Shown one piece after another: positions 13,716 to 20,980 of a stretch of DNA of 20,980 nt. The notes under the pieces are model-generated. The model worked only from the letters and a program-made list of their open reading frames with translations, searched no databases and was not told where the DNA came from. Location of the stretch: IMG/VR virus record IMGVR_UViG_3300050124_000072, positions 1 through 20,980 of that record, one strand, 5' to 3'. This stretch comes from a virus. A program made the translations under genes and the position numbers. Numbering within the stretch: the stretch's first letter is position 1; each line of letters opens with the position of its first letter.

Positions 13716-13945
13716 TGGAGCGCATCGCGATCGATCCCCCACGCGGCGCACGCTGCGTCGATGGCGCTGTCCGTCAGCTCCGTGACGCCGGGAACGCCTG
13801 AGAGATCGGCATCGGTCGCGAGCAGAAAGAGTCCATCACTCGCGCGCGGGTAGCCGACGTAGAGCGTCTCGTCAGGGACCGCTGGTCGAAAGCAGTCTTC
13901 GTCCGTGCCCGTGCCGGTCCCCGGGACAGTGTAGAAACGACTCAC
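13712..13945 (-). CDS. small hypothetical protein in head-tail module
   Basis: The product is 77 residues with a GTG start at 13945 that forms a GTGA overlap with the stop of the preceding gene; its own stop overlaps the next start (ATGA). It is acidic with no membrane segment: an N-terminal half rich in Thr/Gly/Asp and a C-terminal helix (DSAIDAACAAWGIDRDALQ). The strict coupling at both ends supports it as a real gene. Its place suggests a small connector or neck component, but no family is recognised. Confidence 0.6.
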   Translation of the reverse strand: MSRFYTVPGTGTGTDEDCFRPAVPDETLYVGYPRASDGLFLLATDADLSGVPGVTELTDSAIDAACAAWGIDRDALQ

Positions 13946-15636
13946 GCCGTCACCTGATAGTTGTCGATGTTCGTTGTCGCGGGACTCGTCGACTCGATCG
14001 AGAAGCCAGCATTGGTGCCACTCGGTGTCAGCGCGGAACCCGTGAGCGTCGTCGCCAACTTCAGCACGCCGTTGACGAGTATGATCACCGTGGCTCCGGC
14101 GGCGATGACCTTCACCGTCGCGGGTACGCTGTTTGTCAGAGCTGGATTGAAGGTGACGAACGCCGTCAGCGCGCCGGCAATGCGGTAGCGAATGGCGCCG
14201 TTCGTCGTGCTCGTGAACGTGATGACGAGGTTGTTGTCTTTGTCCGTCATGCGGAACAGCAGCGCCGGATTGTTATTCACCCAGTCGGCGGTGACGCAAT
14301 CAGCCTGCACCGTTCCGTTGCCGCCGGGCATGGTGCCGAGTTTCGCGCGCATCGGAGCGGTGACGGCGTAGAGCTTCCCGCCAGAGACTCCTCCGACTCC
14401 GAGGAGCACCGTCCATGCGCCGCCCTTCTCCGTCGCAGTTCCGAGCGAGCTGGTGCTGTTTCCACGCGTGACCGAATCGAACGCGGTGTAGGGGGCATAC
14501 GGATCGACGCTCGCCACTGCGATCGCGGAGCTCACGCCCTCAGACGTGGCGATGATCGCCGCGACACCTGCGTTCGACGCCGATGCCGTGACGAGCCCGG
14601 ACGAACTCACCGCGACCTTCGATGACGCCGTGCTCTGGAACGTGACCGCGCGGCCCGTGAGCACGTTGCCCTGCGCATCCTTCGTCACGATCGTGAGCTG
14701 CTGCGTCGCGCCGAGGTTGAGACTGAAGTCCGTCGGCGAGATGATCACGAGTGCGACTGCCGCTTCGGCGACAACCGTCGCGACGACCGCCGTCGTCACT
14801 CCTTCACATGCGACCACGATCGCGACCTCGCCGCCGGCGACGCCGGTCACGAGGGCATCGTCGTCGACCGTCGCGATCTCTTCGTCCGCGCTCTCGATCG
14901 TCACCACGCGCCCGGTCAACACATTGTCATCGGCATCGTAGAGCGTGACGGTCAGCTGCTGCGTCGCGCCGATCGCCAGCGAGAACGTCGGCGGCGTCAC
15001 GACGATTCGCGCGACGGCGGCGGAGACGTTGAATGCGATCGAGGTGCCGCTCGCTTCACAGAGGATATTGATCAGCGCGAAGCCGGCAGAGACCGCGTGC
15101 ACGAGGCCGTTCTCATCGACCGTCGCGTGTTCCGTGGTGCTGCTATACGCCAAGGTGCGCCCGACGAGCGGGTTGCCGTCGGTGTCCTCCGGCACGACTA
15201 CGAGCTGTGTGTCGCTGCCGACCATGACGTGTTGTGGCCCGATAGGCGTGACCGAATACCGCGTCACTGGGACGAGATCTGCGTCATCGATCTCGTGCGG
15301 CTCTTCGTTCTGGAACATCGAGCTCGCGTACACGTGCTGCTCGTACGTCATGCGGCGCGGCAGGATCGAGGCGATGCGGTAGTCCTGCATGCCGTCGTCG
15401 CCCGGGAGCACGCGGATCATGCCACCTTCGCTCACCGGTGCATCCTTGTGCAGCGTGATCACTGCGTTGATCACATGCGACGTGCCCTCGAAACGCTCGA
15501 GGTCGCGACCCGTCGGCGGCTCCACGCGCGCCCAGGCGTCCGCGATCGCGCGATAGCGCTTGCGCGGGAAGCCATTCGTCCCGATCTCTTCGGCGACGAA
15601 CAGTCGAACGCGCTGGTTCCTAAGACTGAGCGTCAT
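13942..15636 (-). CDS. head-tail joining protein fused to three BIG2 domains and a lectin-like C-terminus
   Basis: The product is 564 residues from the ATG at 15636 (ATGA overlap with the connector gene). Residues 1-115 fit the phage head-tail joining family: RNQRVRLF, YRAIADAWARVEPPTGRDL, VINAVITLHKD, YRIASILPRRMTYE. After this come three tandem bacterial Ig-like group 2 repeats, about 127-205, 210-290 and 297-377, each with a strand such as LAIGATQQLTVTLYDADDNV, the GR-V turn, an ATVD or VAVS strand and GLVT-like turn, and a final AII/AIV strand. Residues about 384-564 form a beta-rich, concanavalin-like domain (AFDSVTRGNSTSSLG, LLFRMTDKDNNLVITF, ATVKVIAAGATVIILVNG). The usual family length is only 100-120 residues. 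The extra modules probably project at the neck. Confidence 0.78.
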   Translation of the reverse strand: MTLSLRNQRVRLFVAEEIGTNGFPRKRYRAIADAWARVEPPTGRDLERFEGTSHVINAVITLHKDAPVSEGGMIRVLPGDDGMQDYRIASILPRRMTYEQHVYASSMFQNEEPHEIDDADLVPVTRYSVTPIGPQHVMVGSDTQLVVVPEDTDGNPLVGRTLAYSSTTEHATVDENGLVHAVSAGFALINILCEASGTSIAFNVSAAVARIVVTPPTFSLAIGATQQLTVTLYDADDNVLTGRVVTIESADEEIATVDDDALVTGVAGGEVAIVVACEGVTTAVVATVVAEAAVALVIISPTDFSLNLGATQQLTIVTKDAQGNVLTGRAVTFQSTASSKVAVSSSGLVTASASNAGVAAIIATSEGVSSAIAVASVDPYAPYTAFDSVTRGNSTSSLGTATEKGGAWTVLLGVGGVSGGKLYAVTAPMRAKLGTMPGGNGTVQADCVTADWVNNNPALLFRMTDKDNNLVITFTSTTNGAIRYRIAGALTAFVTFNPALTNSVPATVKVIAAGATVIILVNGVLKLATTLTGSALTPSGTNAGFSIESTSPATTNIDNYQVTA

Positions 15637-16262
15637 GCGATTCCGATCGGCTTGTACTGATCGAGCGCGGCCTTTGCGCGCGCGGGGAGGCCGCTCGGTC
15701 CCGGATCCCGCCATTGCGTCGACGCGCCGCCGCCGGCGGTCTCGCTCGAGGCGCCGGGCGAGCGATTCGAGTAGAGATCGCTCGCCGTATCCATGATCGC
15801 CTGGGCGATCACCGGCTCGATCGCCGTCGAGTATTCGGGAAACGCCGAGAGGCCGATGTAGCAGCTGATCGTGTACGGGCCGTTGGCGAACGTGTCACCC
15901 GTGAGCGCGATGAAGCGGCCGCTCCGCGAGTCGACGCGGTACGTCGCGGCGTCGACAACAGCGTCATCCTGATCGGTGATCACGGGCGCCGGGATCAGCG
16001 TGACCGGAGGATCTGCGTCGGGATCTGCCGCGCGGCCCTTGTGCACCGGCCACATGGGAATCACGAGCTCCGTGATCCGGCCATAGGCGACCATCGTCTG
16101 CGCGGGATCCACGAACGTCATGAGGATCGCGACGAACGGCCGCTCGAGGTACGCGGCGCACTTCGCGGTCGCGCTCGCGAGGATCATGGTGAGCACGGTG
16201 TCTTCGGCGGTGCCGTCGACGCGGAGATAGCCCTTGAGATCCGCGAGGGTAGGGAGCGCCAT
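15633..16262 (-). CDS. gp6-like head-tail connector protein
   Basis: The product is 209 residues. The N-terminus (LPTLADLKGYLRVDGTAEDTVLTMILASATAKCAAYLERPF) is the hallmark of HK97 gp6 / phage connector proteins, which form the ring beneath the portal. The middle is beta-rich (ITELVIPMWPV, ATYRVDSRSGRFIALTG) and the end helical (IEPVIAQAIMDTASDLYSNR), with a Gly/Ser-rich stretch before the C-terminus. It is longer than bare gp6, matching the larger connector variants seen in many siphophages. The start overlaps the glycosyltransferase stop (TGATG) and the stop overlaps the joining protein start (ATGA). Confidence 0.82.
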   Translation of the reverse strand: MALPTLADLKGYLRVDGTAEDTVLTMILASATAKCAAYLERPFVAILMTFVDPAQTMVAYGRITELVIPMWPVHKGRAADPDADPPVTLIPAPVITDQDDAVVDAATYRVDSRSGRFIALTGDTFANGPYTISCYIGLSAFPEYSTAIEPVIAQAIMDTASDLYSNRSPGASSETAGGGASTQWRDPGPSGLPARAKAALDQYKPIGIA

Positions 16263-20076: not shown

Positions 20077-20980
20077 GAGTCGTCGCTCTCGTCTGAGGAG
20101 TCTTCGTCGTGGTAGAGCATCGTGCAGCGGCAGTTGCTATTGACGATGCCCTGTGCTATCATTAGTCCACTCTCGCTCTGGAGATCGTAGACATGTCCCG
20201 CGTACGCGAAGTGCCGAACCTCGACGACTTGATCCGTCGTTATGAGAGCGGCGTGTCGCTTAAGCAGATCAGTGATGAGAGCGGCCTCGTCCGCATCACG
20301 CTGATGCGAAAGTTCAAGCAGCGCGGCGTCGAGCTGCGCGGGCAGAGCGATGCTGAGCGCCTCAAATGGGCGGGTCTCCGCGAGCAGCCGGGTGCCATCG
20401 AGAAGCAACTCAGCGCCGCGTGGACGGCTCGGCGAGGCAGCCATGACGACCCCTCCGTGCAGGTCCGGCGCGCTATCACCCGCATGCAGCGACTCACGCA
20501 TCGGTTCCGGCACGAGGACGACATCGCCGCCATACTCCGCGCGCGCGGATTCCCCGTCCAACAGCAACAGGCCGTCGGGCCGTACAATCTCGACCTCGCC
20601 TTGCACGTGCCGCGCATCGCCGTGGAGATCGTCGACGCGCAGATGGTGGCGAAGCGTCGGGATGTGTTCCCGAAGCGCGTCAAATACATCCTCGATGCGG
20701 GATGGGGCGTGTTGATCGTCAGTCTTCGCACCGCACCCCGGCTCGACTACGCGGCGATCTGCGAGCAGATCATCGCCTGCGCGAAGCGTTCCGGCAGGGC
20801 GCAAACCCTGCGCGGTCATTACGGGGTGATTGGGGGTCACGGACAACCGCTGCCCCGATCGAGTTACAATCTCCACGGCTGGCCCAGCATACTCTGATCG
20901 AATGCCAGCGACGAACGCTCCGCTGACGAGCGTACCGGGCAGATAGCAGTTGATGACTTCCTCTGGCGATCCGAACGGCG
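20073..20980 (-). CDS. MuF/SPP1 gp7-like head morphogenesis protein, C-terminal part, interrupted by an intein
   Basis: The frame is open to the right edge, so only the end of the gene is seen. Ten residues of N-extein (PFGSPEEVIN) precede a 272-residue intein, and the C-extein is CRCTMLYHDEDSSDESDDS. Joined, PEEVIN-CRC is the hallmark C-terminal zinc-like motif of the SPP1 gp7 / Mu gpF head morphogenesis family, minor capsid proteins often encoded next to the portal gene. The gene stops in an ATGA overlap with the prohead protease, the normal order. The acidic tail is unremarkable. A functional protein requires splicing, as the intein separates the Asn and the first Cys of the motif. The start lies beyond the window. 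Confidence 0.85.
   Translation of the reverse strand, partial: PFGSPEEVINCYLPGTLVSGAFVAGIRSEYAGPAVEIVTRSGQRLSVTPNHPVMTAQGLRPAGTLRAGDDLLADRRVVEPGCGAKTDDQHAPSRIEDVFDALREHIPTLRHHLRVDDLHGDARHVQGEVEIVRPDGLLLLDGESARAEYGGDVVLVPEPMRESLHAGDSAPDLHGGVVMAASPSRPRGAELLLDGTRLLAETRPFEALSIALPAQLDAALLELSHQRDADEAALITDLLKRHAALITTDQVVEVRHFAYAGHVYDLQSESGLMIAQGIVNSNCRCTMLYHDEDSSDESDDS
20134..20183 (+). promoter_or_regulatory. sigma70-like promoter and ribosome site of the antisense endonuclease gene
   Basis: A -35-like TTGCTA (20134-20139), a 17-base spacer, and an extended -10 TG-C-TATCAT (20154-20162) lie upstream of GGAG (20180-20183) and the ATG at 20193. All of it is inside the intein, in the codons of blocks F and G; the -35 overlaps the codon of the terminal splice Asn. 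Predicted by eye only. Confidence 0.55.
20193..20897 (+). CDS. HTH plus VSR/DUF559-like endonuclease, probable homing endonuclease of the intein
   Basis: The product is 234 residues, encoded wholly within the intein on the opposite strand. Residues 8-60 form a helix-turn-helix region (LIRRYESGVSLKQISDESGL, VRITLMRKFKQRGVELRGQS, DAERLKWAG) like those before phage VSR-type homing nucleases. Residues about 103-178 look like the nuclease core: FRHEDDIAAILRARGFPVQQ, GPYNLDLAL (Asp134), RIAVEI (Glu145), FPKRVKYILDAGWGVLIVSL, a (P)D-(D/E)xK-related VSR/DUF559 pattern. The exact catalytic set is not certain. The last about 35 residues (from GHYGVIGG) lie opposite block B and may be a passive extension. 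GGAG is placed nine bases before the ATG. It most likely cuts intein-free copies of the host gene so that the intein can spread. Confidence 0.8.
   Translation: MSRVREVPNLDDLIRRYESGVSLKQISDESGLVRITLMRKFKQRGVELRGQSDAERLKWAGLREQPGAIEKQLSAAWTARRGSHDDPSVQVRRAITRMQRLTHRFRHEDDIAAILRARGFPVQQQQAVGPYNLDLALHVPRIAVEIVDAQMVAKRRDVFPKRVKYILDAGWGVLIVSLRTAPRLDYAAICEQIIACAKRSGRAQTLRGHYGVIGGHGQPLPRSSYNLHGWPSIL

Follow-up and report, generated by a model that had tools for sequence, protein, structure and literature searches.

A phage MuF intein with a putative homing endonuclease encoded on the opposite strand

Introduction

In ordinary inteins, the endonuclease is encoded in frame between blocks B and F. A locus at the end of a viral DNA of 20,980 nucleotides (positions 1 to 20,980 of the IMG/VR record IMGVR_UViG_3300050124_000072, the whole of which is called the window here) raises the question of whether an intein can equally carry its endonuclease as a gene of its own on the other strand, and how such a gene is to be distinguished from a frame that is open by chance. 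Conservation and selection identify two separate genes on opposite strands, and the element is very probably a mobile intein with its homing endonuclease gene opposite to that of the splicing protein.

The splicing element and its host gene

The intein interrupts a head gene, a portal-MuF fusion, in its C-terminal part, on the minus strand in the last kilobase of the window, where it is inserted at the conserved I/V-N-C-R-C site between N and the first C. The features of the minus strand are as follows.

20949..20980, minus strand: end of the N-extein (...PEEVIN); the gene runs on beyond the window as portal-MuF fusion
20130..20948, minus strand: intein of 272 aa, from C1 to N272, followed by the C+1 residue; recognised by PF14890, blocks A, B, F and G, invariant residues and AlphaFold
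20946-20948, minus strand: C1, first residue of the intein
20826-20837, minus strand: block B, T38-P-N-H41 (TPNHP)
20193-20195, minus strand: His252 of block F (GHVYDL)
20133-20135, minus strand: terminal N272 of the intein
20130-20132, minus strand: C+1 residue
20073..20129, minus strand: remainder of the C-extein past C+1, RCTMLYHDEDSSDESDDS, and stop

All landmarks of the splicing blocks claimed in the original prediction were located, and the PF14890 Intein_splicing profile, which matches 45 of 45 aligned homologues (best 6.5e-11), matches the window copy at 2e-7, under the curated cut-off. Invariant among the homologues are C1, T38, H41, V253, N272 and C273, while the terminal N is preceded in the window intein by Ser as opposed to the usual His, which many homologues possess. 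In the AlphaFold model of the sense intein, the Hint residues 1-64 and 236-273 have a pLDDT above 80, mostly above 90, and residues 79-122 are modelled confidently as well; over residues 126-221 the pLDDT is below 50 and no confident fold appears. Profile searches found no nuclease profile in the sense-frame insert of the window copy and the homologues. The predicted lack of a nuclease motif in the sense frame is thus borne out by profiles and by the model over residues 126-221, and a degenerate in-frame nuclease was rejected on the same two grounds. By its motifs and Hint profile, the minus-strand element is a complete intein for which protein splicing is predicted.

The upstream part of the host gene is present in a near-identical IMG/VR contig (L008), where Phage_portal (1.6e-46) and Phage_Mu_F (6e-11) are matched with the intein directly after. 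A scan of IMG/VR with the window intein as a single protein gave as its sole match a contig ending inside the intein. Elsewhere in the window, 13942-15714 on the minus strand encodes a large structural protein matching Ig-domain structural and tail proteins (phrog_215, 5e-16).

The gene on the plus strand

The open reading frame on the plus strand is located wholly within the intein, starting in block F and ending in the region of blocks A and B. Its codons are in register with the sense codons, boundary on boundary, as had been stated for 20193-20897.

20193..20897, plus strand: nuclease gene, 234 aa, HTH and PD-(D/E)xK VSR/DUF559-like domain (profiles, AlphaFold, Foldseek, selection)
20220..20321, plus strand: HTH domain, aa 10-43, three helices (predicted secondary structure, HTH_7)
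20508..20798, plus strand: nuclease domain, aa 106-202, alpha-beta-beta-beta-alpha-beta-alpha (AlphaFold, Foldseek)
20514-20516, plus strand: candidate catalytic residue E108 (conservation)
20592-20594, plus strand: candidate catalytic residue D134 (conservation)
20625-20627, plus strand: candidate catalytic residue E145 (conservation)

Profile searches assign nuclease and HTH matches to the plus-strand product and Hint/intein matches to the minus-strand product. Taken alone, the window nuclease gives weak matches (MTES_1575 REase 1e-4, HTH_7 0.026, DUF559 0.058), and the window copy as well as the individual Pfam scores for the PD-(D/E)xK branch remain under the curated cut-offs. Searched member by member with hmmscan, the nuclease family has its best HTH matches to HTH_58 (7.6e-12), HTH_23 (3.5e-11) and HTH_7 (4.5e-11), and matches on the nuclease side to MTES_1575 in 22 of 45 members and to DUF559 (2e-4), in the MTES_1575/DUF559/Vsr restriction-like fold. 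A profile of eight members compared with the PDB identifies 3hrl (7e-6) and 3r3p, 'Mobile intron protein' (6e-4).

Equally, the AlphaFold model of the antisense nuclease (pLDDT 90.2) displays the HTH followed by the alpha-beta-beta-beta-alpha-beta-alpha arrangement with D and E on adjacent strands, and Foldseek places 3hrl on top of its PDB matches with a probability of 0.97 and no match below E 0.001; structure models were built from the window and IMG/VR loci only. E108, D134 and E145 are conserved in the family, and the sequences of the alignments A1 and A2 were too varied for pattern scans. The antisense product is predicted to adopt a nuclease fold of the VSR/DUF559/MTES_1575 branch, an assignment based on D/E, fold and profiles and not on the classical K or a full EDxHD signature. 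Family profiles, PDB profile matches and fold agree with the proposal of an HTH plus VSR/DUF559-like gene inside the intein.

Open frames, substitution phase and selection

One alternative is that GC-rich coding on the sense strand leaves the antisense frame open incidentally and that its likeness between phages is mirrored sense conservation. For the window itself, at 65% GC, chance would give an open antisense frame with P=0.25 on the codon usage of the genome and with the sense protein held constant, so that openness by itself proves nothing, a caution already voiced in the original prediction. Some mirror similarity is also real, since synonymously recoded copies still score 53 bits on average with the nuclease profile. 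However, about 60 homologous inteins retain the antisense nuclease at full length and in this phase, at a GC content down to 0.38, and in 45 non-redundant inteins no antisense stop is seen where 391 are expected from the extein codon usage of each phage. The sense Leu and Ser codons of these 45 inteins, some of them with 38-45% GC, avoid exactly TTA, CTA and TCA, which are the antisense stops, and the reverse test finds 0 sense stops where 297 are expected; using the antisense stop to set the bounds of the overlap introduces a mild circularity, but the overlap covers blocks B to F in 45/45. Upon synonymous recoding of the sense protein, the antisense frame stays open in just 20 of 1650 copies, and the real antisense sequences, left out of profile building, have a mean score of 212 bits, four times the mirror score.

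Substitutions point in the same direction. In related pairs with an insert identity of at least 90%, the p1/p3 substitution ratio over sense codons is 2.4 in the insert, 0.26 in the exteins and 0.09 in the non-overlapped intein, an inversion confined to the overlap. The overlap-aware dN/dS (ω) values, which are counting estimates on independent pairs with single changes classed as silent or not per frame, separate two stretches of the overlap.

20283..20579, both strands: filler, sense aa 124-222 opposite antisense aa 31-129 (sense ω 0.74-1.0, antisense ω 0.09-0.12)
20580..20711, both strands: dual-coded, sense aa 80-123 opposite antisense aa 130-173, the catalytic core (sense ω 0.22-0.37, antisense ω 0.07-0.12)

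The pairs for the codon counts were chosen greedily and without sharing within each identity band, which is not a phylogenetic model. An antisense ω of about 0.1 where the sense ω is about 1 is at odds with mirrored conservation, as is the existence of a free-standing gene of the same nuclease family. Taken together, the codon statistics, the phase of the substitutions and the recoded copies rule out a chance frame or mirror image, whose residual probability is negligible. The two genes form an antisense overlapping pair in which both frames are held open and the antisense frame is under purifying selection beyond the mirror effect.

Within this pair, constraint differs between regions. In the overlapped Hint part both frames are constrained, and the dual-coded stretch has a pLDDT of about 90 in both models; outside the overlap the sense frame alone is constrained, with a sense ω of 0.02-0.19 in the non-overlapped splicing parts. 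Purifying selection in both frames, suggested beforehand as a check, is found throughout the antisense frame and in the splicing parts of the sense frame but not in the sense frame of most of the insert. There, the sense frame is unselected beyond its openness, and the DNA is therefore mainly nuclease gene. Nuclease divergence correlates with rho 0.56 with Hint and 0.54 with exteins, a slight difference.

The antisense frame also stays open in homologous MuF inteins, the other part of that check, with a single stop in two lineages only. In these (L052; L101/L102), one stop codon breaks the antisense nuclease while the sense intein is intact, which makes them natural antisense nulls, in line with a nuclease that the phage can do without. 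Two further inteins (L053, L075) are frameshifted in both frames, by decay or assembly error.

Predicted expression signals within the splicing blocks

Predicted signals for the expression of the antisense gene overlap the coding sequence of blocks F and G.

20134..20162, plus strand: sigma-70-like promoter TTGCTA-17-TATCAT with extended -10, inside the block G coding sequence
20180..20183, plus strand: Shine-Dalgarno GGAG, 9 nt before ATG, complement of Leu-Gln of block F
20193..20195, both strands: nuclease start ATG, complement of the block-F His CAT codon (GHVYDL)

Both sequence elements, the promoter and the ribosome site, are thus present inside the intein as predicted. Promoter likeness exceeds synonymous recoding with a mean z of 1.48 +/- 0.15 in 45 homologues, and the GGAG arrangement before the start is common to most homologues. 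The block-F His is encoded by CAT and CAC in a ratio of 32:3, compared with 93/269 CAT in exteins (p=3e-12); the other genes of the window use CAC 64 and CAT 12 times. Where CAC is used (3 loci), the antisense still reads a start, GTG, and in three related loci with Gln for His the codon is CAA and the antisense start TTG. The start and predicted promoter of the nuclease are built into splicing blocks F and G above synonymous expectation.

In one branch (L065-L068, L071, L074, L076), the block-F His is replaced by Pro. Here the start of the nuclease seems to have shifted three codons downstream, where it could be located, and several members have TATAAT about 60 nt before the block-F codon.

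Empty alleles, insertion sites and a free-standing relative

Intein-less MuF alleles near-identical to the intein-bearing ones exist, with a flank identity of 95-100%. In Pseudomonas, phage BR313c harbours the intein while the same MuF is uninterrupted in ET602 (100% protein identity) and YMC P52 (99.5%), and similar filled and empty pairs are Sitar and Stultus (Gordonia) and Snoke and SZH-1 (Escherichia); all pairs come from Pseudomonas, Escherichia and Gordonia phages and none from the window's own phage. This presence/absence polymorphism fits homing, short of proof of it or of active homing. The Snoke and KMB36 inteins occupy two different MuF sites.

The related Kagunaviruses L079 and L003 have antisense-nuclease inteins at different MuF sites, each being empty at the site of the other. 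In four loci (L004, L057, L062, L069), antisense-nuclease inteins occur in contexts where neither a Mu_F match nor the NCRC motif can be recognised, in capsid maturation protease-like or unidentified proteins.

In the Acinetobacter phages IME285, BUCT629 and P1068, the HTH-VSR nuclease family has a free-standing member (L082 455-1348; also L084 and L085), which abuts and converges with an intein-less MuF gene. Its opposite frame contains 12 stops, whereas the related embedded Vibrio copy has no TTA, CTA or TCA. The free-standing copy may have given rise to the element or may derive from it; a genome-contig scan for the Vibrio/Aggregatibacter/Acinetobacter nuclease branch gave two genomes, both with inteins, and no further free-standing copy.

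An unrelated family in Gordonia phages

In the MuF intein of Gordonia phage Sitar (L088 2951-3775), the Hint sequence is a different one and the antisense frame codes for a LAGLIDADG-like endonuclease; inteins of this type are also found in Lennon, Nordenberg, Thing3, SchottB and Barsten. The antisense protein of Sitar contains an AAFIDGEG motif, seen by eye, and proteins of this type match phrog_5046 (5e-17 for a relative, L091, and 2e-15), labelled HNH endonuclease in PHROGs. Weak profile matches are to I-MsoI (0.0013) and PF00961 (0.02, under the cut-off), and tblastn gives matches to CcrRogue and cyanophage PP endonucleases. On motif and weak profile matches, the Sitar endonuclease is read here as LAGLIDADG rather than HNH. 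Its p1/p3 ratio, from one pair only, is 1.47 in the overlap and 0.46 and 0.6 outside.

The Sitar and window inteins together suggest convergence of two unrelated endonuclease families on the antisense layout. That antisense overprinting is a general and convergent trait of phage inteins, acquired independently by at least two unrelated families, with signals in the splicing blocks, and was undescribed before, is a view slightly favoured here.

Proposed mechanism and its alternatives

The proposed mechanism starts from what was computed, namely the two genes, their conservation, the direction of selection, the promoter and start bias and the near-identical empty alleles, and adds splicing, expression, target, cleavage and homing as predicted steps. 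The late-operon transcript would be translated into a portal-MuF precursor, from which the Hint domain (aa 1-64 and 236-273) would splice itself out and leave the I/V-N-C-R-C motif of MuF intact. The sense insert between blocks B and F would be a largely unselected loop that must merely stay stop-free. On the other strand, a gene of its own, with predicted promoter in block G and ribosome site and start in block F, would give the HTH and PD-(D/E)xK nuclease, which most likely binds and cuts intein-less MuF, upon which repair copies in the 0.8 kb element. That the nuclease cleaves intein-less MuF genes and that the element is then copied in is held to be highly likely. The layout might, speculatively, separate the timing of the nuclease from late gene expression.

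On the other hand, the antisense gene could be real without being the homing enzyme of this intein, acting as an anti-competitor nuclease or as a DNA-binding regulator whose nuclease fold is unused. The HTH is indeed the best-matching part of the antisense protein, its cleavage activity is predicted only, and the free-standing Acinetobacter copy beside an intein-less MuF has no element to move. However, the gene is confined between blocks B and F, the exact place of intein homing endonucleases, alleles with and without the element occur at near-identical sites, the catalytic-type residues D134, E145 and E108 are conserved, and a second, unrelated homing-endonuclease-like family has adopted the same layout, which renders a non-homing role unlikely. 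A still less probable reading, given very little credence, regards the sense insert as a read-through insertion as proposed for ShiLan, a tolerated loop with which the antisense nuclease spreads. Although the penultimate residue in the window is Ser and splicing is predicted only, the Hint domain is complete and selected, with C1, TxxH, N and C+1 invariant and the sense ω in its non-overlapped parts as low as given above, and so highly conserved a structural motif would hardly accommodate a loop of 30 kDa.

If the homing reading is correct, a selfish element combines host-safe splicing and mobility as two proteins from one DNA stretch, and the nuclease and the late structural protein are predicted to be expressed at different times. 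The antisense layout explains why many phage MuF inteins seem to be without endonuclease. A further implication is that annotation pipelines, by discarding antisense ORFs within larger genes, conceal the homing enzymes of well-known phages such as Salmonella Jerseyvirus and those of Pseudomonas, Klebsiella and Gordonia. Furthermore, among antisense overlaps between two genes of full length, this pair is one of the cleaner, with selection measurable per frame and region by region. As to public records, the antisense ORF is left out of nearly all of them; in Salmonella phage PK1 (L078 1411-2220) it is annotated as a hypothetical protein atop the head gene (XRA40086.1).

Comparison with known systems

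To judge from their titles, a 2025 preprint by Gosselin, Arsenault and Gogarten, 'Actinobacteriophage Inteins: ... Non-Canonical Architecture', and 'Non-canonical inteins' by Gorbalenya from 1998 reportedly concern a possibly related layout. Both are cited in the work on the ShiLan domain, where one citation concerns overlapping frames (Arsenault, Gosselin & Gogarten, 2025; PMC11855218). In the literature searched, which excluded these two titles, no direct precedent for an antisense or opposite-strand endonuclease in inteins was found; the priority of the antisense layout is uncertain, and ShiLan is the closest precedent found. The ShiLan domain is an HNH out of frame on the same strand, in a methylase insertion without splicing motifs; for the ShiLan domain/Pacc40 insertion the hidden gene is in the third frame, no RBS was found, and AlphaFold orders the hidden frame while leaving the sense frame disordered (Arsenault, Gosselin & Gogarten, 2025; PMC11855218). 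Shared with the window are a phage homing-type nuclease hidden in another frame of an insertion open in the host-gene frame and the contrast in AlphaFold models between an ordered hidden frame and a sense frame that is not. In contrast, a VSR/DUF559-like or LAGLIDADG-like nuclease is here encoded on the opposite strand of a true intein with a clear Hint domain, with RBS and predicted promoter, and not a same-strand nuclease without splicing domain.

With I-Bth0305I (PDB 3R3P, 'Mobile intron protein'), which is an intron-associated VSR/EDxHD homing enzyme, the window nuclease shares the VSR-like nuclease fold and the above profile similarity of 6e-4, whereas its family has a resolvase-like HTH at the N-terminus and is encoded antisense to inteins. 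Fractured genes with split inteins, as reportedly described by Dassa et al. in 2009, are said to contain a VSR-family endonuclease between two separate intein halves and equally tie a non-LAGLIDADG VSR-like nuclease to an intein, but here the intein is continuous and overprinted by the nuclease. Classical mobile inteins (LAGLIDADG, mycobacteriophage TerL) likewise have a Hint domain, a nuclease coding region flanked by blocks B and F, an essential host gene interrupted where it is most conserved, and intein-free alleles; unlike in their standard in-frame layout, the sense insert is here without nuclease motif and a separate opposite-strand nuclease gene has a predicted promoter and a start to itself. 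This amounts to a third way of pairing endonuclease and intein, neither in-frame fusion nor neighbouring gene.
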